NCBI RefSeq assembly: GCF_037975245.1
Contig: NC_092576.1
Location: forward strand, 5,752,001 to 5,816,000
DNA from: Apostichopus japonicus
Lineage: Eukaryota > Echinodermata > Holothuroidea > Aspidochirotida > Stichopodidae
DNA: 64,000 nt
Direction of reading: 5' to 3'
In this document: positions 20,797-61,837 of the stretch, in pieces
How the letters are laid out: every line of letters starts with the position of its first letter
Numbering within the stretch: the first letter of the stretch is position 1
The notes under the pieces: model-generated
The model's database searches: none
Told to the model about the DNA's origin: nothing
The model's input: the letters and a program-made list of their open reading frames with translations, nothing else
Program-made: the position numbers and the translations under genes

Positions 20797-20831
20797 GTAA
20801 GTAATGTAACAATATTTGTACTGCTATGTTT

Positions 20832-21347: not shown

Positions 21348-22226
21348 GCGTAGCACTGAGAATTCTAGTAGAAAAATAGTAAAGTTTGCTAGTGCTAATG
21401 ATAAAGAAAAGAAACACGACGTTTCGGGTATAAATCCTTTAACAAAGTGAGCAAAAAGACTACTAAAACTGTAAACAGCGAACGAAGAAAGATAAAATGG
21501 TCTAATGCACACACATGAAAGAAGCGAAAAGTAGCAGGGTAAAAGGACTTACAACAAATCGAATTTAGAGTTTAAACCATAAGGGGATAAGGTGCCAAGT
21601 CGGAAAATTAGTTTATTTTCGGATTTAAGGCGATCGATATCAGTGCCTCTGGGGGACAGAGCACACGTAACTGAAAAGTCAGTCGCTTGAAGACTGGCAG
21701 ATCGTAAAAACTCTTTTATAATTAAACATCACTTTTCTTGTATTTCCACTAATGTAATTTATGTTATCATATGTAAACGTTGTAATTTACTTTACATAGG
21801 TGAAACCAAGCGTAGACTGGCAGATCGTATTACCGAACACTTACGCTCCATCAAATCCAAGTTTCCTGGTTACCCTGTCGCCTCTCACTTCAATTCCCCC
21901 TCCCCCTGTAAGATCAATGACTTTTCTGTTACGTGTGCTCTGTCTTCCAGAGGCACTGATATCGATCGTCTTAAATCCGAAAATAGACTAATTTTCCGAC
22001 TTGGCACCTTATCCCCTTATGGTTTAAACTCTAAATTCGATTTGTTGTAAGTCCTTTTACCCTGCTACTTTTCGCTTCTTTCATGTGTGTGCATTGGACC
22101 ATTTTATCTTTCTTCGTTCGCTGTTTACAGTTTTAGTAGTCTTTTTGCTCACTTTGTTAAAGGGTTTATACCCGAAACGTCGTGTTAGTTTTCTTTATCA
22201 TTAGCACTAGCAAACTTTACTATTTT
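21348..22226 (+). mobile_element. Penelope-like retroelement 3' fragment with an inverted partial copy
   Basis: The right half (about 21714-22226, plus strand) encodes the end of a GIY-YIG endonuclease: an NVIYVIICKRC segment and YIGETKRRLADRITEHL, ending at TAA near 22050. GIY-YIG domains at the C-terminus are the hallmark of Penelope-like elements. The left half (about 21348-21690) is a reverse-complement copy of the last 300 bp, so the two form a head-to-head inverted repeat. The reverse-transcriptase part is absent, so the copy is 5'-truncated. Both arms hold a small hairpin, for example GGGTTTATACCCGAAACGTC at about 22162-22181. Confidence 0.75.
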
Positions 22227-33269: not shown

Positions 33270-36200
33270 AAATACAGGTCACTGGAGGTCAACCTGAGGT
33301 CAAAGGTCACCCAAATGCAGTTCGAACATTGTATAACAATAGCGTAACTCAACCCTGTCAGTGGTAGTTTCACAAGTTATCGGGAAAAAACACATTTTGA
33401 CCCATAAATGACCTTTGGTGACCTTGGATCACATCACGGTTATTTTGGAAAATGTGTCCCTACTTCATTCACAACTTGTCCTAATATACCAGCCATGTCA
33501 GACTTCGTGACTAGAAGTTGTTGCAAAAATTAGCATAAGTTGGGAGTTTTTGGCACATAATCAACCTTGAATGACCTTGGATGACCTAATGGTTTTTATC
33601 AAAAATGTTTCTCTTGATGATGTGCACTCTGTCCTAAAATCCCAACCTTGATGGACATTTGGTTCTAACGTTATGGCAAAAATACTAGTTTTTGACCCCT
33701 AATTGACCTTTGTTGACCTTGGACCATATTACCGTTATGTTTTGAAATGATCCCTTACCCCATTCACAACTAGTCCCAAAATATCAACCATGTCGGACCT
33801 GTCAATGGTAGTTTCACAAGTTATTGAGGGTAAAAAACACATTTTGACCCATAAATGACCTTTGGTGACCTTGGATCACATCACGGTTATTTTGGAAAAT
33901 GTGTCCCTACTTCATTCAAAACTTGTCCTAATATACCAGCCATGTCAGACTTTGTGACTAGAAGTTGTTGCAAAAATTAGCATAAGTTGGGAGTTTTTGG
34001 CACATAATCAACCTTGAATGACCTTGGATGACCTAATGGTTTTTATCAAAAATGTTTCTCTTGATGATGTGCACTCTGTCCTAAAATCCCAACCTTGATG
34101 GACATTTGGTTCTAACGTTATTGCAAAAATACTAGTTTTTGACCCCTAATTGACCTTTGTTGACCTTGGACCATATTACCGTTATGTTTTGAAATGATCC
34201 CTTACCCCATTCACAACTAGTCCCAAAATATCAACCATGTCGGACCCGTCAATGGTAGTTTCACAAGTTATTGAGGGTAAAAAACACATTTTGACCCATA
34301 AATGACCTTTGGTGACCTTGGATCACATCACGGTTATTTTGGAAAATGTGTCCCTACTCCATTCACAACTTGTCCTAATATACCAGCCATGTCAGACTTC
34401 GTGACTAGAAGTTGTTGCAAAAATTAGCATAAGTTGGGAGGTTTTTGCACATACTCAACCTTGAATGACCTTGAATGACTTAATGGTTTTTATCAAAAAA
34501 TTTCCCTTGATGATGTGCACTCTGTCCTAAAATCCCAACCTTGAGGGACATTTGGTTCTAACGTTATTGCAAAAATACTAAGTTTGACCCCTAATTGACC
34601 TTTGTTGACCTTGGACCATATTACCGTTATGTTTTGAAATGATCCCTTACCCCATTCACAACTAGTCCCAAAATATCGACCATGTCGGACCTGTCAATGG
34701 TAGTTTCACAAGTTATTGAGGGTAAAAAACACATTTTGACCCATAAATGACCTTTGGTGACCTTGGATCACATCACGGTTATTTTGGAAAATGTGTCCCT
34801 ACTTCATTCAAAACTTGTCCTAATATACCAGCCATGTCAGACTTTGTGACTAGAAGTTGTTGCAAAAATTAGCATAAGTTGGGAGTTTTTGGCACATAAT
34901 CAACCTTGAATGACCTTGGATGACCTAATGGTTTTTATCAAAAATGTTTCTCTTGATGATGTGCACTCTGTCCTAAAATCCCAACCTTGATGGACATTTG
35001 GTTCTAACGTTATTGCAAAAATACTAGTTTTTGACCCCTAATTGACCTTTGTTGACCTTGGACCATATTACCGTTATGTTTTGAAATGATCCCTTACCCC
35101 ATTCACAACTAGTCCCAAAATATCAACCATGTCGGACCCGTCAATGGTAGTTTCACAAGTTATTGAGGGTAAAAAACACATTTTGACCCATAAATGACCT
35201 TTGGTGACCTTGGATCACATCACGGTTATTTTGGAAAATGTGTCCCTACTCCATTCACAACTTGTCCTAATATACCAGCCATGTCAGACTTCGTGACTAG
35301 AAGTTGTTGCAAAAATTAGCATAAGTTGGGAGGTTTTTGCACATACTCAACCTTGAATGACTTAATGGTTTTTATCAAAAAATTTCCCTTGATGATGTGC
35401 ACTCTGTCCTAAAATCCCAACCTTGAGGGACATTTGGTTCTAACGTTATTGCAAAAATACTAAGTTTTACCCCTAATTGACCTTTGTTGACCTTGGATCA
35501 TATTACCGTTATGTTTTGAAATGATCCCTTACCCCATTCACAACTAGTCCCAAAATATCAACCATGTTGGACCCTGTCAGTGGTAGTTTCACAAGTTATT
35601 GAGGGTAAAAAACACATTTTGACCCATAAATGACCTTTGGTGACCTTGGATCACATCACGGTTATTTTGGAAAATGTGTCCCTACTCCATTCACAACTTG
35701 TCCTAATATACCAGCCATGTCAGACTTTGTGACTAGAAGTTGTTGCAAAAATTAGCATAAGTTGGGAGTTTTTTGCACATAATCAACCTTGAATGACCTT
35801 GGATGACCTGATGGTTTTTATCAAAAATGTTTCTCTTGATGAGGTGCACTCTGTCCTAAAATTTGTTTGGCCTACAAGGTACACACATAATGTTATTGCT
35901 AGAAATGTATCAAAACCAACCTTTGGCCCCTCATAACTTGAGAACTGGGTGTCCGATTGAAGCGGGAGTTGGTTTGCTATATTCAGCACAAAAAGCTCTA
36001 TCATATGTCAACAATTTTTTAAACTTATCTTTGTTCTATTTTGTTTTGCCCCGTATCTCCTAAAATGAGCATATTTTTTAAGATTTGACCTTTGACCTTT
36101 TGACCTAGCAGTCAGATGTAGTTTGACACGCTGATTCCAAAAAGCAACATGACAAGTCTGTGCGACCATTCTAACTGTACTTATTAAAAAACAAAAACAT

Positions 36201-37573: not shown

Positions 37574-37951
37574 ATGCCAAGAAATTGCGTTGTAGGGGGA
37601 TGCAATAGAACGAATGTGGACTCTACACTAAGTTTTTTTTTTCAATTTTCCAAGCGGAAAAAGTAGTGAGAGATATCGGAAACTCTGGATACGATTTGTG
37701 AGGCCAGAACCAGGAAAGACTTCATCGCACCAGGAGTTTCTCATGGCAAGAATGTGAAAGTTTTTTCTGCCCACTTCACAGAAGATGATTGGGACCCTAA
37801 ATATTTGATGCAGAAAAAGTTGAATGTGTCAGGAAAATTCAGACCGCTGTTAAAGACCACTGCAGTGCCAACAAAGCTGGCGAAGAAAAACACGGATTCG
37901 CCTATGAAGAAAAGACGTCGTCTTTCCATCATTGTGTGGCAAGGTCACTAA
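37574..37951 (+). pseudogene. THAP-type zinc-finger gene remnant
   Basis: The ATG at 37574 starts MPRNCVVGGC, the conserved first residues and C-x4-C of a THAP domain. In the first frame a TAG follows a run of nine T (about 37630). In a shifted frame the FP and W anchors (FNFPSGK, RYRKLWIR) appear. The original frame then resumes with KVFSAHFTEDDW, the THAP C-terminal box, and a Lys-rich tail to TAA 37949-37951. The position normally holding the third zinc-binding Cys is Phe. Two frameshifts plus a lost ligand make it non-functional. THAP domains occur in P-element transposases and in domesticated host genes; which this was is unclear. Confidence 0.65.
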
Positions 37952-40406: not shown

Positions 40407-40412
40407 CGAACC
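40407..40412. repeat. Left target-site duplication of the 21.4-kb transposon
   Basis: CGAACC, identical to 61832-61837. Confidence 0.92.
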
Positions 40413-40935
40413 TATGGCAAGCCGTTTTAACATTTACCTCTCTATTCTACTTAAGTAGAATTAATTCTACTTAAGTAGAATACAATTAAGCTTAAGTGAA
40501 ATGAATTGCACTTAAGTAGAATTGCATTTTACTTAAGCTTAATTGTATTCCACTTAAGTGGAATTCATATTAGCTAAAGTTTAAACGGTTCTTGTCTACA
40601 TCGTATTTAACTTAAGTAAAATACAATTCTACTTAAGTAAAATACAATTCTGCTTAAGTAAAATTCAATTCTACTTAAGTAAAATGCAATTCTGCTTAAG
40701 TAAAATTCAATTCTACTTAAGTAAAATGCTATTCTACTTAAGCAAAATGGCTTTTCAATTTCACTTAAGCTAAATTGCATTTTACTTAAGTGAAATAGAA
40801 TTAAGCTTAAGTGAAATGTGATTGGTCAATCTATTTCACTTAAGTGAAATAGAATTAAGCTTAAGTGAAATGTGATTGGTCAATCTATTTCACTTAAGTG
40901 AAATAGAATTAAGCTTAAGTGAAATGTGATTGGCC
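40413..40935. repeat. Left terminal repeat with CTTAAG array
   Basis: A 32-bp unique head is followed by about 20 CTTAAG palindromes (counted by eye), each within an ATTCTACTTAAGTAGAAT-like or AATTAAGCTTAAGTGAAAT-like box spaced about 20-25 bp. The last part has three near-identical copies of a 58-60 bp unit with TGTGATTGGTCAAT. That unit holds ATTGG, a CCAAT box in complement, so the array may double as the promoter of the gene starting at 41181. Confidence 0.85.
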
Positions 40936-41180
40936 AATCAGTATGCTACTCATTGCGTCACTGTACTTGCCGCGAAGTTCACTTTGTATACTCATATCAA
41001 AGATATTTCACCTCCGAAGGTGAGTCACGCTCAAGACGTACTAGTTACGTAACTATTTGCGGCCATGCGCCACACTGCCATACTTATCCAGCTTTCGTTG
41101 TGTATGTACGAACATAACACCATACTTACCCTAAGCAAATGAAGCAAAGCTATTGAGTCTGAACGTTAGACATTCGGAAA

Positions 41181-44100
41181 ATGCAGCCAGCCAATCAATC
41201 GTTGCAAACTGTTGCTGATGCAGTTGGAAGGGCACTTTCGAGGGCAAGGGAGCGACTTCAACACGACATACCATCAAGCAGTGGAACTAGTACCACAAGG
41301 CATGGTACCCATGTAAACATTGCCCCCAGACCAACCACTTCTCCGCTCGACGATGACGTTGGTGTTGTCGAAACAACCGAGTCCACACGTTAGTATGCCT
41401 ATTTAACACTTCAAGTTACTGAGAATCATGCCTATAGCCTAATTGGCTAGGCCCACAAAGGCATATTAAGGGACTAGGCTAGGCCTATATGTTTTTCGAA
41501 ACACTAAATACTAATTAGGACCATGGCACTATGCCTAGGCATGAGAGGCAGACAGGCAAACACAATATTTTTTGGAAGGGGGGGGGGGTGGGAGGGGAAA
41601 GATCAAGGCAGGCGAACAAGGACATCGCATGGGTGTTAGATTTGCCTCATCTTTCTTTTTCATACATGTGTAATTTAATTAATACTGCATGCTTTCTCCT
41701 AATTATTACTATGACAGTGTTTCTTTCTCTCTTATCACAACACTACAGATGACTCTGGTTCAGACTTTGCACCAGATGCTGAATCGTTGGTTGAGGGTGT
41801 GAGGAGAAGGTTTCGAAGGAAACGTGTTGGTGGTGATTCACAGGGTAAGAAAACTTGTAGCCAGTGATGGCACCAAAATATGATGATGAGCCTATCACAT
41901 GGGAGGGGGAAGTTGGGAACAAAGAATACAATTTATGAAGTTATGCATGCCTATGTTTACCTAGATTAAACATTTTAAGATGTGTAGCCTACTGTTTTCA
42001 GGGGGCAAGAAATTTAATGTCCCCTCCTGTCAGCTTTTAATTTTTGCTTTAGTTGTGTGGTGTGTGGAAGTTGAATAAATTTGTGAATTACCCATAATTT
42101 TGAAGAAAAACAGTCAGAAAAAACAAAATCCAGTGAAGGTATTCTGTACGACTGTGAAACAACAACTCACAAAAAGTCATATTGGCAAGCAGGTTGTCAT
42201 TCAGCTACATATAATAGATCCATCCACGGATCTTTCACGTATTAGAAACCAACAGAGAGATCAAGGGAGTGATATTACTTTTTACCTGTGGTTAGGAATG
42301 ATGCCCATTATAGTTAACTCATTAAAACTTACAACATCTTAGAAATGGGTTGGTTTATTGTATAAACTTTCTTTTCGATACAACAGCTTACCAACGACAG
42401 CAAGTTTATGTTTTTGCAAATAAATATGATCCCTTTGAATGAAAGAGAATGTGGAACTTTACCCATCTTAGCATTCATTGGTGCAGCACTCTTGCAGCTA
42501 TGATCTTTGCAATGTGGTCTTTTGTGTTCCAGTTGTATCAATAAATGTGTATATGTTTTCTCTTTGGTACAAAGGAGTATCTTCAAAGAAAGGGAGGAAG
42601 AAGAGACTGGAGTGGAAGACCAAACTTTATCTTCTACAGAAGGCAAATTCCAGACGGACTCCAACATGTATGGAACAAGAACGTTTGGAAGTGAATGGAC
42701 TAGGTATAAATTTTAAGGTTTTTTAACACAATTGTATCTATATCATTCACAATGGTGTATATATGGGTGTTTATGTAGGTTGATATGTGATGTAGATGAA
42801 TACAACAAGGGAACATAGAGGGGAGGGGGGTGGGTGATTTTCCCCTTTTGCAAATAAAAAGTGTCCCTTTATAAGAAAAGGGTTCCTTTTAGCACTGCAA
42901 AATAGACTGGAGTAGCAGGGCAATTTATAATTCTAGAAGGGACACTTTCTATGTCCCCCTCCCCTTACTTTACAAATGTTTCTATCTAAACGGTTCAATA
43001 GAAACCTAATTAATAGAAATCATTATATCTTGTAGATTCCTTTCATAATCTTCCAACTCCAAATGATTGTATATTTTCTTTACCAGGTTCTCCTCTGCAT
43101 GAGCGACCAACTCTGAATGGTGGACGGAGAAAGTCGGTGCTGAAAAGGCACTGGACTGTCCAACAATTAGATTCTTTCATCCAGCAAAGCTATCCAAATA
43201 TTCCATTTGGTTTTTTGGGTTTTGAGTATGCTTTTGCCAACAAATCTCGACAGATTACCAAAATTGAACGCCATGAAATTCACAGCGTAGCTGATGTGGA
43301 AGCATGTGTCGGCCAGGGAAAATTTTACATCATCCCAAATGAAGATATTAGGGTTAGTTTCTTTTGTATTTTAAATTTATAAAGTGTTGGTTCCTCAGTC
43401 AGCTGTCTTCTAAACTGATGTAAATAACAATTGACAGGTATAGTCTGCAGCTTGTTAATGTCAAGTTGGCCTTAAATTAATGTATACCACATGTGATCAG
43501 CCAATACATACTTTGGACTTAGGTTATGTATTTTAAGTTGATCACATATCAACCCGAAAGATCGTTCTTCATATTTGTCTTTCTTCTCTTATCCTTCATA
43601 TTTTTTCCAATATTCAACTATAATATTATGTTATTAGACAACCAAGTGGTGTTTTGCTTGTTAAGTGTAACATATATTGTTCTTTATAATGGACACTTCA
43701 GATTTTGTTTCTCCTATATATAGTCAAATAGTGAAAGAGTCCCGCAGCCATCCATTCAATTGCAGCCTCAAATAAATGAAGAAGTAAGTGATGTATTTAT
43801 TATGATAATAAATATTACAAGTGCCAAGCTGTGGCTAATAGTGGATCTATTCTTTTGTAGTTCTACTTGCAATTGCAATGATAATCGATTACAGTGGTGA
43901 GCTTGTGTCATCCCTGCTGTCATTCATACATTGAAATACACACTAAGGATATCTTTCATGTTTGAGCAAAAGTCTTGGGGTAAGATGTGATTGATTTTGT
44001 AGAAAAATTGTCTTTAGATGAAGTCAACCTGTGGTATGTGGTCATTGTTGTTCAAAATTAATGTTAAATTTCATCCTGAAATTATCCTCAATTCCATTCA

Positions 44101-47100
44101 CTGATTCCAAGTTTACTTATATGAGAAGATTTGATTGATTGAACTGTACAAATATAAAATTTCCATTTGTATGTGATGACTAATCACTTCTATTGGAAGG
44201 GTTATTATTTATCTGAGGTTGTAGTGCTGCATTTTGTATTAGTTGAGTGTTCATTTTTTACGAAATGATACTAGTTTTTTGGGTAAAATTTCTATCAGCA
44301 TTTGCAAAGATCTTCTATTTGCTGTGGTTTCATTGTGCTAACCAACTTGGTCAACTATAAGGGTGTCTTTAATACAGAAGCCCATTCATGGCTTGGAGCA
44401 AGTTTGAAACCAAAAGCTGATTTAATTGCTCTCCAGATCTGCTGACAGTGGGCTGCAGATGTAACAGTATTAACCTCATGCAGGTGATATATTCAATGTG
44501 CCTCCAATTAGGACCTTTTCTAGTTACTAACCTTAGGCAGGCTAGTAATATCTATACAGTCAGATTGGCATTGTATGTGTGTGTGTTGTACTATGCTTTA
44601 GATTGTAAACACAATATCCCAAGTTAGGTTACTTCAAGGAACCTAATGTTTGTTACCTGTATGTGGCTTCCCCATAGTAAATACATGAACCCTGATGGAG
44701 TTCAAAGATCACTTGGAGTTAGCACTTGGTAGAGGTCAAAATGTAAAGATATCAAAACTAGTGTATTTCTAGACATTGAACATCAAGATACATATTGGGT
44801 AGCATCATGAATTGCACAGTTCTGATGAAAGTTGTTGTAGTTCAGGGGTTAATTAATTATCAGCTCAGAACGAAACTTTGAAACACAATATCTGTAGAAA
44901 GGAAACTATCAGTTGTCATATTTGGTTTGTGGCTACCTATATCGAGGGAAAGAACACAACTGTTTTTGTTGGAGGAGACCCTCGAACAATGGGTAACATG
45001 GCACATTTTACACATTGGAAAAAACACAGTATGTCTTAGATGATGAAACCTTGTCTTGAGCATGTAATAGGAGGGTATGTGCTCTTATTTTTGCTTTAAT
45101 CTTTGCAGATAGGTATGGAAGAACTCCCTGGTCCATCTGAAGATGTCCCACTTAATCAGTCAGTAACTCAAGGCAGGCCAGAAGTAAGTAAATAAAATTT
45201 GTTACGGAAATCAGCAATTTGTTGACTATATATGTAGACTATTATATTTGTTGCATGCATGCCAAAGACAAAAATGTAATGTATGCAATGGAAATGTGTT
45301 ATGTGTGTGCATATATCGGTTAGGGGTGCTTTTCATGTAAACCTATAGTATGGTGCATAAATGCATATTCTCCTACAAAAAGTCATATGCTGTAGCTTGC
45401 ACTTGCCAAATTTGTATAACTATTATGGAACATACTCACTGGGTATTAGTTTTGTGAACTACATTATGGCAGTTGCAGGCTATCAAAATAGACTAGTCAT
45501 CTACAGTGACTCAATATTGAAAGGGGCTTCAGTATCACACACTTTTTATGCCACCCCAGGACAACACCAACTTCTGTGTTTGGTTTCTTGTAAAATTTGA
45601 TCGCCTGTATTATTTTGTTTATTAATACAACTGTTATTAAGCACACAATATAAATTGGCCCTCTTTTCATTGGGTATATCATTTATCTCAAAATTAGTAT
45701 TGTTAATTGTATTAAAGAACATCAGGGCCACACCGAGATAAAAAGTTCATATCTGTATTTCTTTTTTTGTCTCTGCCCTACTTTTTTTTATTTCTTCAAT
45801 TTTTAATTTTTTTAATTTCTGTGACTTGTATTTCTTCGAACTCTTTTCCATTCTGCATTCTGCATTTTTTTGCCTGACAGTTTTTGTTGCACTATACCGT
45901 AGGTGTTTATTTGTTGATGTCATTTCTCAATTTGGTAGGTTATTTTTTACTGTATAAAATAGATATTCCCCTTTACGTATTTTATATTATTACATTGTCC
46001 TCCTGTTTATTCTTACTGCATGAAGAATCTACAAATCAGATAGATGAGGTAATGCATCTGATGAACATATTTTGCAATATTTAGGTGGGTTTTGTAACAG
46101 CATACATCCATAAGCCATGATAATTGTGATTATCACCAACCAAAACACAATTTTGTGCAAATAAATGTACAATCATAATAAAAAGGGGAAAATATGTAGG
46201 CCAAATATACAATCACCAACTTTAATCAACAGGTAAGCTATGATGTTTACCTTGTGGTATCATATGTAACCTGTACATGATTAAAGATTAAATTGATAAT
46301 TTCATGTGCGTTCAATTATGTTATAGGGTGAATAAATGAAATCAGTATACATGAAGCTACATTGGTGTGATAAAGAAAGTTGACACATTGTGTACTGGAT
46401 ATTTGATATTTGTTTAGACACCTGCTAGTCAAGTTGCCCAGAACGAAGATGAACAACCAAACCAACGTGAAGATCAAAACGTAAGTTCATAACTAATATG
46501 TATTCCAGGAACATTGACAAACTCAAGAGGCATAATATTAACTAATTAGAAATGGTTACCCTTGAAGATTATAAGCCACCCTGTAATGTTTCCTTACTGA
46601 CAATGTTGTACTGATGCTTGCAACCAGCTACCTCCTAAAATATTGAAACCAACTGACCATTCTTTACAAATGGTATTTTTGGGCAGGAAACTGGTAGCTT
46701 TTCAAAAGTAGATTTTCACAGAATTTCAATGCTGAAATAGGACGACTTGGACATAGTAAGGAAGGAGGAAAATATGAACTACCAGGAAAAGTTACCGAAT
46801 GTTCCACCATTTAATTCTTTTTAAGTTTGCTATTTTTTATGTGTATAACCATTTTGCAGGCACGCATATTGCTGATAGAAGAGCAAAACCAAGCCTTTGA
46901 AGAAAGCCTGCGGAACGATGCCCAACGGGTATAACACTCTGCTTTCTTAATGAAATGTGTATGTCTGTCTGTCTGTCATGTGTGTTTAACACAAAAATAC
47001 GATATCAAAAGAAGAATCGTATCAAGAGATCTGATACTTTAAGGCAAATGCTTGGTTCAGTGGTTAGAGTGTCCGCCTCACATACCTTGGGTTCCTGGTT

Positions 47101-50100
47101 CAAAATTCTGGAAAAGCCAGATTCTCTTAACATATTCAAAAATTGTTACAGTAGTATTTCTCGTTTATGAATTGGAATAAGGGGTTTGTTGCTGTTCGTC
47201 ACTTGATTTGGAAACAACTTAGTGATGTCGAATGCATTACCCATCACAGTGTTTGAGAAAGTGGTCAGCTGCTGGGGTTGCCCTCTTGTCCGTCTGGGAG
47301 GAAAGTGTAACCCCAGCATCTTACCATGCTAAATGACTGTCCCAGGATTGGGAACAAGTTCATCCACTGCATCATTATTCTCTGAACACTTGTCCAAAAG
47401 GGAATTTGTACCGGAATTAAGCTGGTGTTCATCCATGATCATGACAGAGAAAGGATATGATCTCAACTTCAAGGTGGAAAGGCCTTTTGATTTTAGTGGT
47501 TGTCAAAAGTCATGTGAGGTATACAGCAATCAGCGGTAAATTTCAAGATGGGACCGTGTTGTAAATACTTTGTACCATGTGGGTGAACCATAAATAGTGC
47601 AAACTAGATAGTGCTTGGTCAGCAGAGGTCAAATGTGAACACCTTTAATAAACAATTTTCTTAAGAAGTGAAACTGAAAAATATCATTATTAGTATGTAA
47701 ATGCTAATTGAGTGTAAAATATTTATAGGTTTTGGTGACAATTGAGGGGCACTTGAGGTCAGTCAATTGAGGTAAACATTACAAAAAAGTTACACTTGAG
47801 TCCTCATACTTTGTATGTGTTTTTCTTGGCAACCATATTGGTTTTATTCTAGTTTGATTCATCTCAAGTTCATGCAATTACCTTAAATGTGATTTGAAAA
47901 GAAACCCTCAAATCTTACAATTCTTGTAATATGCCACTAAAAAGTGATATATTGACATCATTGGAAATCTCATTGCACTTTGAAATTGTGTTCTATTGTA
48001 ATATTTAGTGGGAAATGTTTAATGCCTTTAGTTTAATACTGTGTATCGTCTTCATTTTAACAGGATGTAATACAAGAGGCAGTAGCAGAGGCAGAGAGAC
48101 GACGATTACAGGTCTGCTTTATGTTTAATTTAAGAGTCAGAATTATATGATAACCATTACAGGGATGCACTGCATTCAATGTTTGTTATCCAACATGAAA
48201 TCCGACCTGATAAAGAATACACTAAATTAATTTCTTTGGTTTAATATTGTAGCAATTAGTCACACTAATAGTTACTACAGATGGTTACTACAGATCAAAA
48301 TATGCAAAGAAAAGATATTTACTGTGCAACTTTTGTTAACCTCTGAATACTTAAGGCTGTCAAAAATGTTTCCCCTTACATCACTGCAGTTGAGCCTTCT
48401 ACAAAAAGACTTTCAATTTGACTGCACTGTATGCAATTATAAGCAGTATGCACTAACAATTTGTGACACCTTATAAATTATACAGAAAATACTTTGTAAA
48501 CTGTGTTTTTAATAATTGTTACAAAGACATCGCTAGAACTTACATTTATGTCAGATTTCAACTTGATTTCATTTGAGATCCAGAACCATAAAATCTGGCC
48601 GGACCATGTATCAGATACATCCCTACCTGAAACCATGTATTTGTGCAGTTTCAATTGATTAATGATGTAGCTAAAGCTATCTGTCTTTCCTGTATTCATT
48701 TCTTGTAAGTTCACATTGTTATTTACATTTTTAGACTATTCAAGATCGTAGGAGTCATTTGGATGAGGAATTGGCTTCTGATAGTTTACTCCAGATATGT
48801 TTTCCTGACGGGAGAAGAGAAAGAAGGAGATTTGATCTGTCTGGTTCCATTCAGGTAATAAGGAAATTTAGATTGGGAATTAAGATTCATGTATGAAATT
48901 ACTGGCCTGGAAAATTTGGGCTCAAGCAACTCTGAGGTTTACACGGGCCGGTTATGGTTCATAATTTGGTATATATCTAATTAACTGTACCACCCATTTC
49001 GAACGGTATATATATTGACTAGGTTAATGTTATTTTTCTTTACTTCTACAAAGTATTTTAATTATGAACATGAAAAGGAAGTGGCTAGCATCTTCTGGTA
49101 ACATATTTCTTACATTGGCAGGCTATCTTCAACTTCGTAGGAACATTTGACAGTGCAACAGAGAACTTCACTGTCCACATAGCAGGGAGTAATACCTCTA
49201 TCCCTAGTTCTGCAGTTGGAACATGTTCATCTCATGGGGTGAATGATCGCAGCTCTTTGTTGGTCACATGGTTGGAAGAATTTCAGGTAGGCCTACTCTC
49301 AATTAGTTTTGTAATAGTCTTGAGACAGAGACCAGCAGTCTGCATGCAATCATCTCAATCTCAGTATGTACACTAAAGACGGTAACAAGTTGGTTAACCA
49401 AATGAGTACAATTGTTCATAGGTTGTGAATAAAATAACTTTAAGTGAAATATTTTGATGCAAACAAGTCATAAAATATACTATCAGGTGAGTAAATTGTG
49501 GTACTGCAGTCTGTTCACAACCATAGTGTACAAACTGTAACTGGTTGCTTTACTATTAAGCTTATCCATTTGTCTATAGACACATGAGAAATCATGTATC
49601 TTCAGTCAATGGGTAATTAATTTAATTACTGTTGTCATGAGGAACAAACTCCTGTGCCTTTTAAGAAAGATTATATCTTTGTTGGTTTAACAAATAGCAT
49701 ATCAATCAATGAACCATGGAATAGATGATCATGATAATCACTGCAAGTAACAGTTTCTACTTTGCATTTTGGTTTCACACAGCCCACTGATTCAACTCCT
49801 GATTTTGTACCAGCTGCAACTACTGTTCATCATGTTTCAAGTGAAAGTGAAAATGAATTACCAGAAGTTATGTTGTCTGGTACTCCATCTGTGAGTATGG
49901 CTGATATTGCAATTTATTTTTGATGTTAGCCTACTTAATTGCTTCATATCAAACATTTCATCGCATCAACTCTAGTGATAATAGCTGTTTGATTGGTTAG
50001 TAGAAGCAGTCCTTACAGATAACAGGATGGTATACTTCTCTAATAGCTTACAGGTATTGTGGCTAGTGTAATTACCTGAAGATGTTCTATAAGAATAAAC

Positions 50101-53006
50101 ATATGATGTGCAACTAGGAAAAGAAAATCTTGGGAAAAATTAATAAATTAATGCTACGCTTATAAAACGATTCAGCTTATTGGATCATTAAAACCTCTGG
50201 TACACTATATACAGAAACAATATACCCCACTGATGTGTGGTGACAAGTTGGGGATACAATTTACTTTAGAGCTCATTTGATACCATGGACCCTTGAATGA
50301 TAATTGTGCAGAATTATGTCTTTCCCAACATAAAATGATCACAGCCTGTCATAGATGCATTTATTTAAAGACCTGTAAAGTTTCATTTCTTTATATTTTG
50401 TTTTATTTGTCATGTTTGCCAATTAATCTATTGGGGCCAACAATTTATTTGTGTTGATGGGTATAGGAGTGATGTTACTGTAGCATGATCTGCCTTGATT
50501 TAGCCTCTACCTGTAGCAATCAACCTGATTGTGCAATTTTTGCAAATTTACCCCAACTGTATTTATGTTTGAATTTTCTGTGTTTCTTTGATAGGTGACA
50601 TTCCTTTCTTCTGACAATTTAAATAGTCAAATGAACACTGACATTGATGAAGGTGAGTTCATTGTATAGCTAATGAAAATATTGACAACACTTTAATAAA
50701 TAAATAGACAAAGGGGTTGGATAGTTTAACTGCACTAGAATTTTGTCAAGGATATTGTTATTGGTATACCCATCATTTCCCCCCCCCCCTCCCCCGCCCA
50801 TTTGAATGGTTGACCTTTGCTATCATTATTGCATGTGTTTGTTTGTGCAAGTGTGTTTGTGTATATGTATGGTGTTATGTCTAGCTTGTATGTAGGATAT
50901 TTCAAGAAATTAATGTTTGGACTGATCTCATATTTGGTATGTAGGTGTACCAAAATGAGTACAAGAAGCCTATTGTTTTTGGTTATAAGGCAGCAGAGGT
51001 CAAATTAAGAACCTTGTAACCACTATTTCTCCTGAAGGGAATCCATGACAGATATTGTATGTAAGTCGGTGTAACACAATGAAAAGAAGGGATAGGGAGT
51101 AGGGAGATGTATTGGGGTGGTGGGGGGTTGGAAACATGGAATCTTAAACATGTATATGGTGCAAGTAGCAAACATGTACATCCCCCCCCCCCCAACAACA
51201 CTGTGTTCTGCCAGTTTCAAATGGTGTGAGTGATGCCCTATTCTGCATCTTAGTAAGAGTTACTATTTTTGAACTAATAGCTTAAAAATGGCTCATCTAT
51301 GCATGTAAAAAACTGTATATACTTGTTTATGTTTTAGCAGATTTCAATGACAGTTAAATTCAACATGTGAAATTTTCCAGCAGTCTCAGTCTGTATTTAA
51401 ATTTACAAATTGTTAACATATATTTATGGTTGTTTACTCTTATGATGGGCACTGAATCTGCCCAGGTTGGTGGTCATCAGGGTCATTCAACTCGGTAATT
51501 CAGCAAAAAGGACAGCAAAAGTGAAATTATGAACATGTTATTGAAAAAGTTTCAGCCTGCTTTTATGGTAAACTGCACTAATTACAGCCCATAGAAGCTC
51601 TGTGATTTTAGAACTTTTTTAAGCAGTCAATTTAACCACTGGGGAAAAGCAAATCAAATTAAACTGGGGGCACCGCCTGGACAAAAATGGGCTGGCCAGA
51701 ACCCTGGGCTAGTGTAAACGTTGTTTACCTAGGGTCTGAGAATTCTGCAACCTGCACACTTTTATTTTCATAGTGTTGTAAAACATATAACAATATTTTT
51801 TTGGCATATCAGCACAACACCTCAAAATCCTTTGCTTTTAAAATGCATCACAGAGCTACATGGAAATGCCAGAGTATTTTATGTACAGTTAAAGACAAAA
51901 CATTTGTAACACACTAGTTTGTACTTATTTATTCAGCAGATGTTTCCACTCTCTTTGCAGCTTTCAATGCTCTGGACCAATGTCTCTCTGATGAGACCAT
52001 AGATGTCGCAGTCAGGAGAAATCATGTACTGGTAGATGTCATGAATATTTACAAAGAAAATAAGGAGATAACATCAAAAAGGCTGAACGTTAAGTTTGAA
52101 GGTGAGGAAGGAGCAGACTTTGGAGGTCTGACCAGAGATATGTTCTCTATGTTTTGGACAGAAGCTGGGAGACTGTACTTTGCGGGTGAGGGAGCCATGG
52201 TTCCACGGGTGCCTCTCCACAAGCATCGTGCAATGAAGGGAGACTATATCACTCTGGGTGCAATTCTCAGCCATACTGCAGCATTGACCCATGTGGTCCC
52301 ATCAAGGCTTTCACGGACCTTTCTGACATTAGTTGTGTTTGAGGATCCTCCATCTGAAGACTATCTTCTAAAAGATTTCTTAGATTTCATTACAGTGTCC
52401 GAAAGAGCTCTTCTGAAACGGGCATTAAGAAATTTTGATGCTTTAACTCCAGCAGACAAGACCAAGCTGATTGATGTTTACTCAATGTATGAGATGTACG
52501 AAACACCAAGTCAGTCAAACATCAACCAACAGCTCGTTGCAATTGCTGAGTCAGCTCTTATCTACAAAAGTAAACCATTTGTGGAGGAAATGAGAAAGGG
52601 TATGCCTCCTAGCCATATGGCTGCCTTCTGGAGCAAGCTTTCTCTACAAATGATAGATTTCATATTTGTCATGCAATCTCCAACTGGCAAGAAGGTTGCT
52701 GATGTTCTTCAGAGTCAGGGAGATCTTCGCCCTCAAGAAGAAGCTGTTCTCTGGTGGCTTAAGGACTTTGTTTCTTCCCTTGATGCTGAAGATGTGGCCG
52801 ATTTTTTGAGATTTACAACTGGGTCATCAGTTATGCCACAAGATCCCATACAAGTTGAGTTCTTGTCAACTGCCAGATTCCCAACAGTAAGGACATGTGC
52901 CAACCTCATCCAGTGCCCTGTATTTTACACTTCAAGAAATGAGCTGAAGAGAGAATGGCGGGCAATCTTGAGTAATTCTGATTCATTCCAGATGAGTTTA
53001 CTCTGA
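41181..53006 (+). CDS. UBX-domain/HECT E3 ubiquitin ligase, transposon cargo
   Basis: The fourteen-exon model is 41181-41388, 41749-41844, 42575-42703, 43087-43352, 43724-43783, 45109-45183, 46418-46480, 46860-46928, 48064-48111, 48735-48854, 49122-49286, 49783-49890, 50595-50652 and 51961-53006. All introns are GT-AG and phases match, giving 836 residues. Residues 1-300 are mostly low-complexity, except a HWTVQQLDSFIQQSYPNIPF block (about 160-230). Residues 300-338 hold the EEQNQAFEESL helix seen before UBX domains of FAF-type proteins. About 357-420 is UBX-like (CFPDGRRERRRF, AIFNFVGTF), without a clear FPR p97-binding loop. About 505-836 is a full HECT domain: FEGEEGADFGGL near 534-545 and the catalytic Cys801 (codon 52896-52898) in RTCANLIQCPVF. 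HECT enzymes pass ubiquitin from an E2 via this Cys to substrate. The N-terminal exon is the least certain. Confidence 0.85.
47046..47330 (+). mobile_element. tRNA-derived SINE-like insertion in an intron
   Basis: A head with TTGGTTCAGTGGTTAGAG (A-box-like) and a damaged B box GGTTCAAAATTC is followed by a unique body. It lies in intron 8 of the UBX-HECT gene, i.e. an insertion into the large transposon. Confidence 0.45.
50915..51005 (+). repeat. Dispersed AGGTCA-type repeat in intron 13
   Basis: Contains TCATATTTGGTATGTAGGTG and AAGAAGCCTATTGTTTTTGG followed by GAGGTCAAA. Related to 15800-16070 and 57950-58140. Confidence 0.5.
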
Positions 53007-53093
53007 AGTTCTGAAATTTGGTTGAACTTCAAATTTGCCCATGTAGATAGCACTGTGTGAGTAGATGATCTTTATTGTTTAACACAGATCAAA

Positions 53094-55920
53094 TGGAGAC
53101 CATCCAAAGCCATTCCTCGAACTGTATTTGTTATTTTCTTTTACTTGTAATTTAGTATACATAGTACTGAAGTACCAGTGCTATGTAACTGTGTGTAATT
53201 TGAACCACCTTGCCAACTGTTTTCATATGATTCTTCTTTTATTCTATGCTATCATGGAGACCATCCAAAGCCATTCCTCGAACTGTATTTGGTATTTTCT
53301 TTTACTTGTAATTTAGTATACATAGTACTGAAGTACCAGTGCTATGTAACTGTGTGTAATTTGAACCACCTTGCCAACTGTTTTCATATGATTCTTCTTT
53401 TATTCTATGCTATCATGGAGACCATCCAAAGCCATTCCTCGAACTGTATTTGGTATTTCCTTTTACTTGTAATTTAGTATACATAGTACTGAAGTACCAG
53501 CGCTATGTAACTGTGTGTAATTTGAACCACCTTGCCAACTGTTTTCATATGATTCTTCTTTTATTCTATGCTATCATGGAGACCATCCAAAGCCATTCCT
53601 CGAACTGTATTTGGTATTTTCTTTTACTTGTAATTTAGTATACATAGTACTGAAGTACCAGTGCTATGTAACTGTGTGTAATTTGAACCACCTTGCCAAC
53701 TGTTTTCATATGATTCTTCTTTTATTCTATGATATCTTGGAGACCATCCAAAGCCATTCCTCGAACTGTATTTGGTATTTTCTTTTACTTGTAATTTAGT
53801 ATACATAGTACTGAAGTACCAGTGCTATGTAACTGTGTGTAATTTGAACCACCTTGCCAACTGTTTTCATATGATTCTTCTTTTATTCTATGTTATCATG
53901 GAGACCATCCAAAGCCATTCCTCGAACTGTATTTGGTATTTTCTTTTACTTGTAATTTAGTATACATAGTACTGAAGTACCAGTGCTATGTAACTGTGTG
54001 TAATTTGAACCACCTTGCCAACTGTTTTCATATGATTCTTCTTTTATTCTATGCTATCATGGAGACCATCCAAAGCCATTCCTCGAACTGTATTTGGTAT
54101 TTCCTTTTACTTGTAATTTAGTATACATAGTACTGAAGTACCAGCGCTATGTAACTGTGTGTAATTTGAACCACCTTGCCAACTGTTTTCATATGATTCT
54201 TCTTTTATTCTATGCTATCATGGAGACCATCCAAAGCCATTCCTCGAACTGTATTTGGTATTTTCTTTTACTTGTAATTTAGTATACATAGTACTGAAGT
54301 ACCAGTGCTATGTAACTGTGTGTAATTTGAACCACCTTGCCAACTGTTTTCATATGATTCTTCTTTTATTCTATGCTATCTTGGAGACCATCCAAAGCCA
54401 TTCCTCGAACTGTATTTGGTATTTTCTTTTACTTGTAATTTAGTATACATAGTACTGAAGTACCAGTGCTATGTAACTGTGTGTAATTTGAACCACCTTG
54501 CCAACTGTTTTCATATGATTCTTCTTTTATTCTATGTTATCATGGAGACCATCCAAAGCCATTCCTCGAACTGTATTTGGTATTTTCTTTTACTTGTAAT
54601 TTAGTATACATAGTACTGAAGTACCAGTGCTATGTAACTGTGTGTAATTTGAACCACCTTGCCAACTGTTTTCATATGATTCTTCTTTTATTCTATGCTA
54701 TCATGGAGACCATCCAAAGCCATTCCTCGAACTGTATTTGGTATTTTCTTTTACTTGTAATTTAGTATACATAGTACTGAAGTACCAGTGCTATGTAACT
54801 GTGTGTAATTTGAACCACCTTGCCAACTGTTTTCATATGATTCTTCTTTTATTCTATGTTATCATGGAGACCATCCAAAGCCATTCCTCGAACTGTTTTT
54901 GGTATTTTCTTTTACTTGTAATTTAGTATACATAGTACTGAAGTACCAGTGCTATGTAACTGTGTGTAATTTGAACCACCTTGCCAACTGTTTTCATATG
55001 ATTCTTCTTTTATTCTTTGCTATCATGGAGACCATCCAAAGCCATTCCTCGAACTGTATTTGGTATTTTCTTTTACTTGTAATTTAGTATACATAGTACT
55101 GAAGTACCAGTGCTATGTAACTGTGTGTAATTTGAACCACCTTGCCAACTGTTTTCATATGATTCTTCTTTTATTCTATGCTATCATGGAGACCATCCAA
55201 GCCATTCCTCGAACTGTATTTGGTATTTTCTTTTACTTGTAATTTAGTATACATAGTACTGAAGTACCAGTGCTATGTAACTGTGTGTAATTTGAACCAC
55301 CTTGCCAACTGTTTTCATATGATTCTTCTTTTATTCTATGTTATCATGGAGACCATCCAAAGCCATTCCTCGAACTGTATTTGGTATTTTCTTTTACTTG
55401 TAATTTAGTATACATAGTACTGAAGTACCAGTGCTATGTAACTGTGTGTAATTTGAACCACCTTGCCAACTGTTTTCATATGATTCTTCTTTTATTCTAT
55501 GCTATCATGGAGACCATCCAAGCCATTCCTCGAACTGTATTTGGTATTTTCTTTTACTTGTAATTTAGTATACATAGTACTGAAGTACCAGTGCTATGTA
55601 ACTGTGTGTAATTTGAACCACCTTGCCAACTGTTTTCATATGATTCTTCTTTTATTCTATGTTATCATGGAGACCATCCAAAGCCATTCCTCGAACTGTA
55701 TTTGGTATTTTCTTTTACTTGTAATTTAGTATACGTAGTACCGAAGTACCAGTGCTATGTAACTGTGTGTAATTTGAACCACCTTGCCAACTGTTTTCAT
55801 ATGATTCTTCTTTTATTCTGTTATCATGGAGACAATCCAAAGTCATTCCTCTTAATTTATTTGGTATTTTCGTTTATTTCTCAGTTAGTATACACAGTAC
55901 TGAAGGAACCAGCGCTATAA
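53094..55920. repeat. 161-bp minisatellite, about 17 copies, inside the transposon
   Basis: The unit starts ATGGAGACCATCCAAAGCC and repeats every 161 bp from 53094. Two units, near 55186 and 55507, lack one A (160 bp), and a degraded unit ends the array near 55826-55920. Variants recur every fourth unit: TATTTCC with CAGCGCTATG near 53454 and 54098, and ATCTTGG near 53733 and 54377, implying a 644-bp higher-order unit. The array begins about 90 bp after the UBX-HECT stop, probably in its 3' UTR or just downstream. The 62-codon frames in each unit are by-products of the period. Confidence 0.93.
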
Positions 55921-57018
55921 AACTGTATGTAAGGAAAGTAAAACAGTGGTTGAAAAAAGTGTTTAACCATCTTGCTGGCTGTTGCAAAGCAATCCAAAAC
56001 TGGAGAGAATTATGCATTTTTTCAGTATAGGTAAATGTTACAGATTCTTTGAAGAGAGCAGTCAACAACAGAGTAAAGAAGGACAGAGAGCGTATATGTG
56101 TTTCAATGTACGATTTAATGATGAACAACAACATACTTAATGTCAGTTACATAGAATCTTCATTCTACTGTATATATTCTTTTTGAAGTTTTTATTTTCA
56201 GTCTGTGTATAATATATATGGTTTGTTATTATATTCAGTCGCATCTTCACTCAGTTTTTAATTCACTTTCCTATGGTTCTTAGTTTAATATTCTCTTTCT
56301 TCCTTGTTCAGCTTGAATATTGTTTCATCCCTGCCTCATTTTGGCATCTACAAAGGTACCAAAACACCCAATTAATTCTTATCTCAATGAATATGGAAAT
56401 GGGTGGATACACTGATTCCGTTTCTTTGAATGAAAATTCTGACTAACATTTCATAATTAAACAAGAGCAACTTACGATTTTACTGGTTTTTGGTTCAAGC
56501 CCAAGACAGAGAAGAGAGAGCATGTGTCTATACTGTTCTACTTATAATCCCTCATACCAACGGAATTATGATACTCTTTAACAATACATGATTATGCAAT
56601 GCTAAGGATGCACAAAACCATGGCAAAATAATTGGCATTGAATTAACTCAACATGTAACACAACATCGATAAAATACTATAAGAATAATATAAGAACGAG
56701 TTGTGACACTAAGTTTTCTTTGATACTAAGAGAAATTGTGAACTGCCTTCCATCCATTATCAGTACACAATAAATCGATTTTTTAAAACAATTTAAATGT
56801 GATTCAGTCTTTATCTATTTGATTGTTTTTTGATATGTTTGAAAAAGTGTCTCGAAACTGAGATGGTAACAGAAGCAAGACAGCCCATATGTGCATTTGA
56901 AACTATAATTTGTTAGCAGTGTGCAAAACTTTATGACTATGTTAAGTGTGTTGCACTTCTGGTTTAAAACTGTTTGGTCTCAGAAAGAGAAGCAGGCATC
57001 AATACAATCAAGATCAAG
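55921..57018. other. Convergent intergenic region inside the transposon
   Basis: AT-rich and non-coding. A plus-strand AATAAA at 56769-56774 could serve the UBX-HECT transcript if it runs through the minisatellite. No third gene was seen. Confidence 0.4.
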
Positions 57019-60000
57019 CTATATTTGATTTAGCTCCATGTGAAAAAACTCTTTCAATTGAAGGTATCTTTCTTTCAAGTTTGGTGCAGTACACTGTTGA
57101 ACTAACTCCCTAATCCTCTCACTGCTGATGTTTACCATCGGTGGTGTGACAGACAAGCCCCCATGAGCAGCAACCTGGAGCTCATCATGGCTGCCTAATA
57201 AATCTGGAGACAAGCCATAGTGTCGTAGGCTTTGTGTTAGATCTGCTGCCAGGTCTCTGTTGCCAAAGATGTTACCAACTGCACTACAATTGGTATTCAT
57301 GTTGTTCAGTACACCTGAAAGCCATAATTGGTTTGGTGTTGAATGCTGAGCAGTTCTGAGTGAATGTCTGTTCCATGCTTGCTGGAAAAAAGTCAACCTC
57401 CTGTTTATTTCAGGGAGATAGACTTGATGTAGTGCCTCTAAATCAGCTGGATCATCTGAGTTTAGCTGGCCATCATCTTCCATATGGTAAAACAGCTCAT
57501 AGAAATAGGATATGACCTGGAAAAACACATCTCGCCATAGCCTCTCAATTCTCTGATTATGTTTTGATTCACCGGTAATGTGACTGGCACGGTTTGAACC
57601 CTGAACAAGCTCCATGAATAGGGCAACAAAGAAATTTTCCCCTCCATGATCTGACCTAGTGCGAGATGGTATTCCATATCCGAGTGTTGCCTCCACAAAC
57701 AATGTTAACACTGTAAGTGCATAGTTATCACTTCCACATTTCAGGTATGTAATACACCGGGAAAACCCATCAATACATCCATGAGTCACTAGCTTCCATC
57801 TACAGAAAGAGAAATAAAAAAAAGAGTCTCTTTAGTCATGTTATATACAGTTACAATATTCCACTCAATCATCTCTCATTATTTTAGGACTCAAGTCCTG
57901 TCTCAAGTCAAAATGTGACTACATTGTAAAAACACTGAGTGGTAAAGAAGGGAAGCTTGGACAGATCTCATTTATTATGTAGGTGTACAACCTAAAGTAG
58001 AAGAAGACTATTGTTTTAGGTGAAGGTCAAAAATCATGGGCCATGATGTTCAAGAGATTGGAAAGACCTCACATTTGGTATGTAGGTGTGCAACATTGAG
58101 TGGAAGAAGCCTGTTCTTTATGATGAAGGTATTAAAAAATATTAAAATGATGAAAGAAAATTTATTGTTGACAAATATATGTAACTTTTTCACTTTTACA
58201 AGACAAGCACATGTGACAACTTCAGCTTGACATGTTTAAACTCAATTTCTTGTTTTCACTCTGTTTGTCGTTCTAGAACCAATACAGGGTGCATGCAGTG
58301 AACATTTAAATTTTTTGTAATGTGTACATATATACAGTACTGCTAAAAGCAAGAGCACAGCACTTTATACATACGTAGCATTGCATTATTATCAATGGGG
58401 ATGAAGCCAAAAGACTGTTTAGTATTGAAATATAGTTTCATTCATGGTATAAACATAACTGTCCACAAGAATAGTGTATTTCATGGCTAGGTAACCAGCT
58501 ATTTTATGTCACTATAATCAGCACTTTAATTGAGATCCAAGGTATTTAATTCCGCTTAAATATAACAATAGTGCTGATAATTCAGCATCATCAAGTCTGA
58601 TGCAAGGGGCAAATAATGGACAAAGAGTAATCATGACTTCAAAACTGAAATTTGGCAATATTAGGATAATCTTAGAAATATCCTATTGTGTATGTTTTTT
58701 GAACCACGTACCTAACTAGTTTCATGTGTCCATCCATGTGCCACAGGCTGTTCGGTGTTGGAACATGGTACGTCCTTCTCTTAACTGTCTTACTCCAACG
58801 CTTTGCAGCAGAATGGGGATCCACACGTCTGAGTGAATCTCTGACACGTGATCTTTGCACCACAGAACCATCTACTTCTAGATATGCTTTCATCATCTAA
58901 TAATTGTTAAATGAAAGAATGTAGAGTTATTATGTGTGGCTTATTTAAGAAATGTGGAACAAAAGTAACAATTAAAGACCAGAACAACCAGTTCATTGTG
59001 TGCGGTACTTGAATCATCCATAACTCATGAAAATGTTATCGTTACTTAACAACCATAAATAACTGTACCCTAACTCTACAAGCCAACTATAATATTCGTG
59101 AACGAATATCACATTTGAATCTCACATTGCTCAGAGAAAATTATATATAAATTAGATATTCCATACAGTTTTGCCATTGATATTCCACTTAACGTTGAAT
59201 GATAAAGAGCTACGGTATATAACAAAGACATTTTACACAGGGGTTCACAGTATATTAAGCACAATACTCCTTTATCACTATTAACTGTGTGGTACACATA
59301 CCCTTATAATTTAGTTTTTCACTGGTCAGGTAATATGCAAATTTGCCTTTCATGATGTTTCAATCCCCTTGTGACTTTTACACAACTATAAAATTGCTTG
59401 AAGGTAGGCCTACAGTCGGCTTCGGCCGCAAACTCTGCCAGTATAGAAGTTTTCAAAAAGTTCCTGGAGGTCTTTACTTTCCAAATTGTTCTCAGACATT
59501 CTAATTGAACACACAAGATGACTGAATGTCCCAGCGAAGTAAATTTCCTCCACGGTGGTAATAAAATCAGTTAAAGAATTTTGACCAAAGGATGACTATT
59601 TTTTGAATATCTGGCATATTTGGTGCCAATACAGATTGCCCATAAGAAAAGAAGAAAACAAAGATCTATACAACATGACAGGAGTTGTTCCAGAAAAAAA
59701 AATGATACCTTACTGACTTTAAGGCTGGGTGCACATGACAGGCACAAATCATTATCATACATGAGTATGGCAGTGGAGCAGCCATTTGATCATCCCAATT
59801 ACTTAATGTATAGGCACAACATTCTCAGCAAAGTTACCTGTTGACCAGAGTTTGGATAGTCAGCATGTAGCTTAGAAACTTTCATGTCAAGCTCTTCATC
59901 AGTCATTGTGCTGTACATCTTCCTGACATTTAAACCAAATGCAGCTAGTTTCTTGTACACAAAAGATGGAGAACAAGATAGATGACATGCCATGTCTTTG

Positions 60001-61288
60001 GACGTATATCCCTCTTTAAGCAACATTTTAAGCTGTTCTTTTGTCACATCAAGTTTGGGTCTTCCCCCTTTAGAACCTATGAAAGAAACATGTGGAGAGA
60101 TACATCTTTATGAACTAAATACAATAAATAAGTTTAAGATGAATATACATTAAAAATTGGAAACATAAAACAGACAGTCTTGAACATTGGGAAATACATG
60201 GTCACACAGCTAGTTATGCCTTTATACCTTTATGCAGGTTTTACATTTAATTAACTACTACTGAGTGTACTGTACATACAGAACATACTATCTGCAACAT
60301 AATTCTAAAAAAATGTCATATGTTGTTGGCCACACCCTACTGTATGACATGGGGCTATATTGGTCCGAAACTGGACCCAACTTGACACTTTGGGCCTGAT
60401 TTTTTCAAAGTTAAGCATATGAGTTATGGCTGTAGAAAATCAGAAACTGTCAGCCGGACAATTGAGCATGACTTTAACACATGATGCCAGCATGACATCA
60501 ATTGAACTGACAATTTGAGCCAGACATTTCAATCGTGGCTGACGTTGAGCCTGAAAAGATGTTTCAACTACAATAAGGTTGATATGTATGCATGAGAACA
60601 ATATACATCGTAGATGATGACAAAGGAACAGAATATCATTTTTAGAGGCTGGTAAATTAAATAACATGTAAATGAGGCTGGTATCACTTAGAAACTTGTG
60701 TTCTGAGACCCACAATGATTTATTTTGTTTCTCTTCAACATACAGATTTACAGAAATAGTAACTAACATTAAATGTAAATACAATGAGGAAGTGGCCTAG
60801 CTCCTACATAAAAAGGCTGAACACTAATATACTTCTAATACGGGCCTTGAACTTAGAACGCAGGCATTCTGACTAGTGTAGCTTCGATTTCTAACTTTTA
60901 CTCGAACTGTACCTTTTTCTGGTCGAATGCGAGCAGCTTCGTAGTTGACAATAGCTCCTCTCTGCTGAATTTCCAGAGGTGGTACTCCATGGTTGCTGCG
61001 GTTATATGTAGCATGCAATTGAATCTGTTCAATATGATTTACTAGGCTACCAATGGATTCATTCACCTCTTGTGTACTTGTTACATGCAACCTATCGCTG
61101 ATGCTGTCGAGGTTTTCTTGACATGACCGAAGTCTATTTATTAGGTCCTGGAAGCGATTGTTCCCTTGCGTTAACTGCAAGACCACATTTCGCACTGTGT
61201 TTGTGATACTTGAGAGAATTTGGTCACATTGTAAACCAGAAAGAACACTAGAACTAGAAGCGCCAGCCATGTTGTAATACTGCAGCAT
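57019..61288 (-). CDS. Integrase-type (DD34E) transposase of the 21.4-kb transposon
   Basis: Four exons on the minus strand: 61288-60913, 60076-59838, 58896-58712 and 57799-57019, all GT-AG with matching phases, giving 526 residues (520 from the second Met at 61270). Residues 1-125 are a helical, coiled-coil-like N-terminus. A basic linker GSKGGRPK and a helix-turn-helix (about 131-175; DMACHLSCSPSFVYKKLAAFG) follow, presumably for DNA binding. The RNase H-like catalytic core has Asp260 in WHMDGH, Asp317 in RSDHGGEN and Glu352 in NQRIERLWRDVF, with 34 residues between the last two. This is the rve fold of retroviral/IS3-type integrases. Exon 1 starts about 20 bp inside the right CTTAAG array. 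All catalytic residues are present, so activity is plausible. Confidence 0.9.
57950..58140 (+). repeat. Dispersed AGGTCA-type repeat, two partial copies
   Basis: Two adjacent partial copies (about 57957-58035 and 58060-58135) of the family at 50915-51005, in intron 3 of the transposase gene. Since copies also occur outside the transposon, they were probably gained by insertion. Confidence 0.45.
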
Positions 61289-61295
61289 GACGACC

Positions 61296-61831
61296 GATCC
61301 TTCAATTCCACTTAAGCTAAATTGTATTTTACTTAAGTAGAATTGAATTTTACTTAAGTAAAATGCAATTGTATTCTACTTAAGTAGAATACAATTCTAC
61401 TTAAGTAGAATACAATTTAGCTTAAGTTAAATTCAATTTCACTTAAGCTTAATTGTATTCTACTTAAGTAAAATACAATTCTACTTAAGTAGAATACAAT
61501 TTAGCTTAAGTGAAAAAGAATGACACTTTTACTTAAGCTAAATTGTATTCTACTTAAGTAGAATTGTATTTTACTTAAGTAGAATACAATTAAGCTTAAG
61601 TGAAATTGAATTTTACTTAAGCTTAATAGAAAGTGGTAATTTTACTTAAGTGGAATACAATTAAACTTAAGTAAAATGCAATTCTACTTAAGTGCAATTC
61701 ATTTTACTTAAGCTTAATTGTATTCTACTTAAGTGCAATTCATTTCACTTAAGCTTAATTGTATTCTACTTAAGTGGAATTCATTCTACTTAAGTAGAAT
61801 AGAGAGGTAAATGTTAAAACGGCTTGCCATA
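61296..61831. repeat. Right terminal repeat with CTTAAG array
   Basis: About 23 CTTAAG palindromes (by eye) in ACTTAAGT boxes, ending in the inverted 32-bp head. The outermost 110 bp mirror the left terminus. The inner edge abuts the transposase start codon, so this array is also its upstream region. Confidence 0.88.
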
Positions 61832-61837
61832 CGAACC
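61832..61837. repeat. Right target-site duplication of the 21.4-kb transposon
   Basis: CGAACC, identical to 40407-40412. Confidence 0.92.

Follow-up and report, generated by a model that had tools for sequence, protein, structure and literature searches.

A structurally complete IS3EU/GingerRoot-like transposon of Apostichopus japonicus with a HECT-type passenger gene

A 64,000-nucleotide stretch of the sea cucumber Apostichopus japonicus (the window; G000:C16:5752001-5816000) holds what a first-pass annotation took for a large cut-and-paste transposon with a ubiquitin ligase gene beside its transposase gene. Does this second gene serve the transposon, is it baggage, or is it kept for the host? 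Here we examined the element, its copies and its relatives. Genome searches covered the 671.6-Mb assembly with its 35 contigs.

Ends and genes of the element

The element has 21,419 bp (window 40413-61831) and ends in TATGG..CCATA. Its outermost 49 bp, starting TATGGCAAGCCGTTTTAACA, are an exact inverted match, which bears out the claim of exact terminal inverted repeats (TIRs); across the first 125 bp inverted similarity of the ends is 94%. The HECT ligase gene (plus strand) and the transposase gene (minus strand) are arranged tail to tail. In this copy the structural parts are in place: ends, duplications and two intact genes. The tandem repeat between the genes is variable, with 13 exact anchors in the window copy vs 3 in the second full copy described below.

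Table 1. Coordinates of the features of the element in the window.
Feature	Position	Strand	Remarks
Left target duplication CGAACC	40407..40412	.	6 bp
Left TIR	40413..40461	+	49 bp exact; 94% to about 125 bp
Left array, 20 palindromes ATTNNRCTTAAGYNNAAT	40450..40919	.	limits set by CTTAAG cores
HECT ligase gene	41181..53006	+	14 exons, CDS 2,511 bp
Ligase exons 1-7	41181-41388, 41749-41844, 42575-42703, 43087-43352, 43724-43783, 45109-45183, 46418-46480	+	
Ligase exons 8-14	46860-46928, 48064-48111, 48735-48854, 49122-49286, 49783-49890, 50595-50652, 51961-53006	+	
UBX-like stretch, two exons, P0127 353-394	48735..49286	+	Pfam UBX
Last ligase exon, nearly whole HECT domain and predicted catalytic cysteine	51961..53006	+	Pfam HECT; HUWE1/NEDD4 folds by Foldseek
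Tandem repeat between the two genes	53093..55932	.	161-bp unit, 17.7 copies
Transposase gene	57019..61288	-	exons 61288-60913, 60076-59838, 58896-58712, 57799-57019
Right array, 23 palindromes ATTNNRCTTAAGYNNAAT	61311..61794	.	limits set by CTTAAG cores
Right TIR	61783..61831	-	49 bp exact
Right target duplication CGAACC	61832..61837	.	6 bp

The transposase gene consists of four exons joined by GT-AG introns (526 codons). The protein matched the Pfam 'Integrase core domain' rva_4 with 301 bits; a helix-turn-helix match of 18.5 bits was under the Pfam cut-off. It is 99% identical to P0007, A. japonicus BSL78_09042. At E <= 1e-10 a total of 437 proteins matched, and among the 120 matches listed relatives were from fish, molluscs, beetles, corals and a sponge. 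All 21 sequences chosen for comparison share the catalytic triad without exception, and 34 residues separate its second D from the E (DD34E). Inspection of the 526-aa translation by eye revealed no C-x2-C and hence no HHCC zinc-binding motif. The AlphaFold model (mean pLDDT 80) matched the folds of the Rous sarcoma and MMTV intasomes, TnsB and IstA (best E 1.2e-5) at TM-scores by query length of at most 0.29 among the best. A PDB sequence search with one transposase exon gave no match, and neither did a search of viral contigs. Among prokaryote contigs three were retrieved; they are assigned to the MAG of a sponge symbiont and are probably sponge DNA. On a contig assigned in this way (L001 693-722) an end-like TATGGCAAGCGGTTTGTAACA is located near an rva_4 transposase, but the gene is outside that end rather than inward of it.

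The translation of the ligase CDS, assembled across 13 GT-AG introns, is A. japonicus P0127 (836 aa) letter for letter; a protein search with a partial 692-aa model had returned P0127 as its one match. Thus, the element does have the two intact multi-exon genes attributed to it. That the second is of the HECT type was confirmed by a Pfam HECT match of 42.3 bits vs a cut-off of 23.9. The mean pLDDT of the ligase model was 55.5, with most 10-residue blocks of the HECT region at 67-93. Foldseek aligned the model with HUWE1 (5e-13) and NEDD4 (6e-13), and the cysteine of its TC-motif aligns with that of HUWE1, which we take to be the catalytic one of HECT. The protein would be a working E3 ubiquitin ligase. 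An additional, weak UBX match (23.4 bits vs a cut-off of 21) covers profile positions 5-47 of 82, i.e. half of the profile, in a part of low model confidence. UBX domains usually carry an FPR loop; by eye none was evident in this stretch. We assign UBX only tentatively. In both full copies the element's ends enclose the HECT gene, which rules out a host gene next to the element.

Next to the TIRs, arrays of the palindrome ATTNNRCTTAAGYNNAAT, nearly invariant outside N, occupy about 0.5 kb per end. Spacing was 20 or 21 bp in 34 of 41 intervals, both ends together, corresponding to about two turns of B-DNA. Sites 1-5 are equidistant from either end and site 6 is so within 1 bp. Elsewhere CTTAAG occurs three more times inside the element; the 40.4 kb on its left contain three and the rest of the window on its right none.

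The remainder of the window contains an open frame whose GIY-YIG domain passes the Pfam cut-off (21691-22047) and which may be the terminal part of a Penelope-like retroelement, an open frame with an immunoglobulin-like match slightly under cut-off (20436-20801), possibly a host gene exon, a THAP-like fragment under cut-off (37670-37948) and a tandem repeat with a 447-bp unit, 5.6 copies and 95% matches (33354-35862).

Class of the element and published relatives

The first-pass annotation had likened the element to IS3EU. IS3EU families are described with TA..TA ends and usually 6-bp duplications, and they group with GingerRoot (PMC10045372). All features that we tested agreed with this reading: 6-bp duplications, TA..TA ends, a DD34E core and absence of HHCC. 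With IS3EU/GingerRoot the element thus shares ends, duplications, a DDE transposase and the lacking HHCC motif; it differs in its HECT/UBX passenger, of which the parts of that description available to us make no mention (PMC10045372). An assignment to IS481EU was rejected: those elements end in TG..CA and duplicate about 4, 15 or 25 bp of their target (PMC10045372), as against TA..TA and 6 bp here. The IS3EU/GingerRoot-like assignment is supported by ends, duplications and DDE core as set against published descriptions.

Parallels in architecture are known from fungi. Rust IS3EU end in TAYGG..CCRTA, and in IS3EU with TET/JBP genes there is also an alpha-kinase gene, oriented against the transposase (PMC12730594). 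According to the parts of this source used here, the rust and Tuber elements resemble the window element in the TAYGG..CCRTA ends, inverted repeats of >30 bp, 6-bp duplications (rust families) and a second gene opposite the transposase, yet their hosts are fungi and the passengers a dioxygenase and a kinase. Styx of Zymoseptoria is held to descend from an IS3EU ancestor coding for two proteins (PMC10853768). It likewise combines an IS3EU-related transposase with further genes and has 36-bp inverted repeats; however, in the sections consulted it is given as 7.9 kb long, and its other genes have GATA, CCHC and DUF3577 domains (PMC10853768). Ubiquitin-related passengers are known from Ginger1, Mutator and Helitron elements, which carry OTU or Ulp1 proteases, and a role of ubiquitin in transposition was proposed (PMC2836005). 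The common trait is a DNA transposon with an enzyme of the ubiquitin or SUMO pathway; as far as the source was available, those enzymes are proteases which remove ubiquitin or SUMO, not ligases, in Ginger1 the protease is a transposase fusion, and the elements are from other superfamilies.

The open-access literature that we searched yielded no DNA transposon reported to carry a HECT gene. G2E3-like HECT expansions exist in fish and corals. Perhaps related is a case from Cottus fish, in which a repeat of no known class had a match to G2E3, a ligase (PMC5638112, as far as available).

Copies in the genome and HECT genes beside other transposases

The 20-base end was found with at most two mismatches 595 times in forward and 608 times in reverse orientation (about 1,200 in all); the reversed control yielded 0 and 1. 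Twenty single ends among the first 100 places listed were extended 10 kb inward and one, L033, held both genes. This copy 2 (G000:C1:12260970-12283636) has 22,667 bp, near-identical coding exons of both genes, one mismatch in the left end and its own CGGCCG duplication on both sides. A chance inverted repeat is ruled out by the second full copy and the end matches. Only two full copies of the family were found, the window element and copy 2; transposase matches of >90% identity were limited to these two among the 83 exon-level matches scored (298 candidates). In copy 2 the transposase exon 1 is interrupted by a 1,551-bp insert (L033 7768-9318, ends CAGTGTTCGA..TCGAACACT), which we take to be hAT-like, and the HECT frame is open.

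Does selection act on the two genes? For HECT, comparison of 833 codons between the copies revealed nine synonymous changes, three nonsynonymous ones and no stop (pS 0.0161, pN 0.0016; p = 1.6e-4 vs neutral). These are the codons lying whole within exons; intron-split codons, the stop and one unaligned codon at the end of exon 8 were excluded. In exon 1 there is one 15-bp length difference. Because of this excess of synonymous changes we conclude, from the sequence comparison, that the ligase gene is under purifying selection. The transposase had 6 synonymous and 10 nonsynonymous changes, no departure from neutral (p = 0.12). The contrast between the genes (Fisher p = 0.067) is only suggestive of a stronger constraint on HECT than on the transposase.

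As a sample we took 20 short copies of 565-2,659 bp, recognised by closely paired ends, from the first 100 places listed. Exact 6-bp duplications flanked 16 of them; two similar copies, L014 and L015, had one mismatch, L012 had 5 bp by eye and L029 none. The duplication CGAACC on both flanks of the window element, as originally claimed, has 6-bp counterparts in copy 2 and in these 16 copies. Both genes together with a 6-bp duplication, the combination that the first-pass annotation proposed to look for, are present in copy 2, though its transposase is interrupted. Eighteen of the 20 contained 35-53 CTTAAG cores, L014 and L015 having 3 and 4. With tblastn, remnants of HECT exon 1 (44-80% identity) were detected in 11 short copies and not seen in the other nine; transposase N-terminal remnants (37%) were detected in three. 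The HECT exon-1 remnants make it probable that HECT-bearing elements were ancestral to many short copies. It is plausible that the window element is an enzyme source for many short copies with the same ends.

The 16 exact duplications among L012-L031 are G+C-rich (68 of 96 bases), and CGGCCA and GGGCCG appear three times each, which could be target preference or segmental duplication. Short copies are clustered, nested or in tandem, at G000:C1:11141082-11147575, where the end sequence has eight exact matches in 6.5 kb.

From the many transposase matches in the genome we took two diverged families with open transposase frames and examined the DNA on the downstream side of each. The P0021 transposase is 48.6% identical to that of the window (local alignment), and 2.8 kb away a convergent open HECT frame has 38.6% identity to the window HECT over 345 aa. 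For P0038 the corresponding values are 43.6%, about 3.1 kb and 38.8% over 345 aa. Hence, a convergent HECT with the cysteine motif kept was present in two of two families, and by its position it would be inside the element ends in both. A fourth pair is indicated by the consecutive locus tags BSL78_10752 (P0004, a HECT start) and BSL78_10753 (P0008, a transposase, 69-70% identical), whose contigs are also of equal length. The notion of a regular passenger is therefore supported by both full copies and the P0021 and P0038 families, with a fourth family by locus tags. A single recent HECT capture is ruled out by HECT genes beside diverged families. Between P0021 and P0038, HECT is 57.6% and the transposases are 48.8% identical. 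To the window transposase, both are at a similar distance (48.6% and 43.6%), whereas each HECT is just 39% identical to that of the window. Strict co-descent is thus not demonstrated, and the identity pattern would also fit an exchange of passengers between families.

Baggage, host gene or aid to the transposon

The window element is a new family within a known kind of transposon, and its second gene is unexpected, recurrent and selected. Because related transposons in the same genome adjoin the same kind of gene, the data suggest that the ligase helps the transposon rather than being baggage. We give a probability of roughly three in four to the whole explanation, a structurally complete IS3EU/GingerRoot-like DNA transposon with a HECT ligase kept for the element's benefit. 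The transposase would bind the element ends, the evenly spaced palindromes would act as its docking array, and the ends would be joined to cuts with a 6-bp stagger. Most likely the HECT protein would tag its target for removal, either a host factor that acts in silencing or repair or the transposition complex; to judge by its UBX-like stretch, it may contact the p97/Cdc48 unfoldase.

Could the ligase be a host gene captured by chance, passive cargo without a role for the element? Captured genes do occur in DNA transposons and just two full copies of the family were found, yet purifying selection between these copies, recurrence of HECT in the same layout beside diverged families (a fourth by locus tags) and the remnants of exon 1 detected in 11 of the 20 sampled short copies make this rather improbable. 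Even less credible is a domesticated ligase kept for the benefit of the host while still in a transposon. The gene is intact in both copies, stands in the public set as an ordinary sea-cucumber protein and has an open frame in copy 2 while the transposase there is interrupted; but two independent insertions, each flanked by a target duplication, contain it, and HECT genes turn up again next to diverged transposases. A separate matter is the route of movement. Copying rather than cut-and-paste would agree with the about 1,200 end matches and with the fact that we saw no excision footprint, and in bacteria IS3 elements are copied out in circular form. Cut-and-paste followed by repair, however, also gives high copy numbers, and for Styx, described as derived from IS3EU, in the sections available, excision and then restoration via homologous recombination are discussed (PMC10853768). 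We consider a copying route unlikely.

Beyond a ligase kept for the element's benefit, an animal IS3EU-like lineage may have had a fixed HECT gene since before its families diverged to <50% identity, needing it for mobility and directing the host's ubiquitin machinery, possibly together with p97, against silencing factors or the transposition complex. This is tentative and we put it somewhat short of even odds. If true, the ligase acts opposite to the passengers described so far, which remove ubiquitin or SUMO. Both genes of the element stand in public sets as ordinary sea-cucumber proteins, a warning for annotation. With its full copies, its short copies as substrates and its regular end arrays, the family lends itself to a two-component mobility test. 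With a recurrent ligase under purifying selection, the proposal of a role of ubiquitin in transposition, as far as set out in the parts of PMC2836005 used here, becomes testable from the opposite side.
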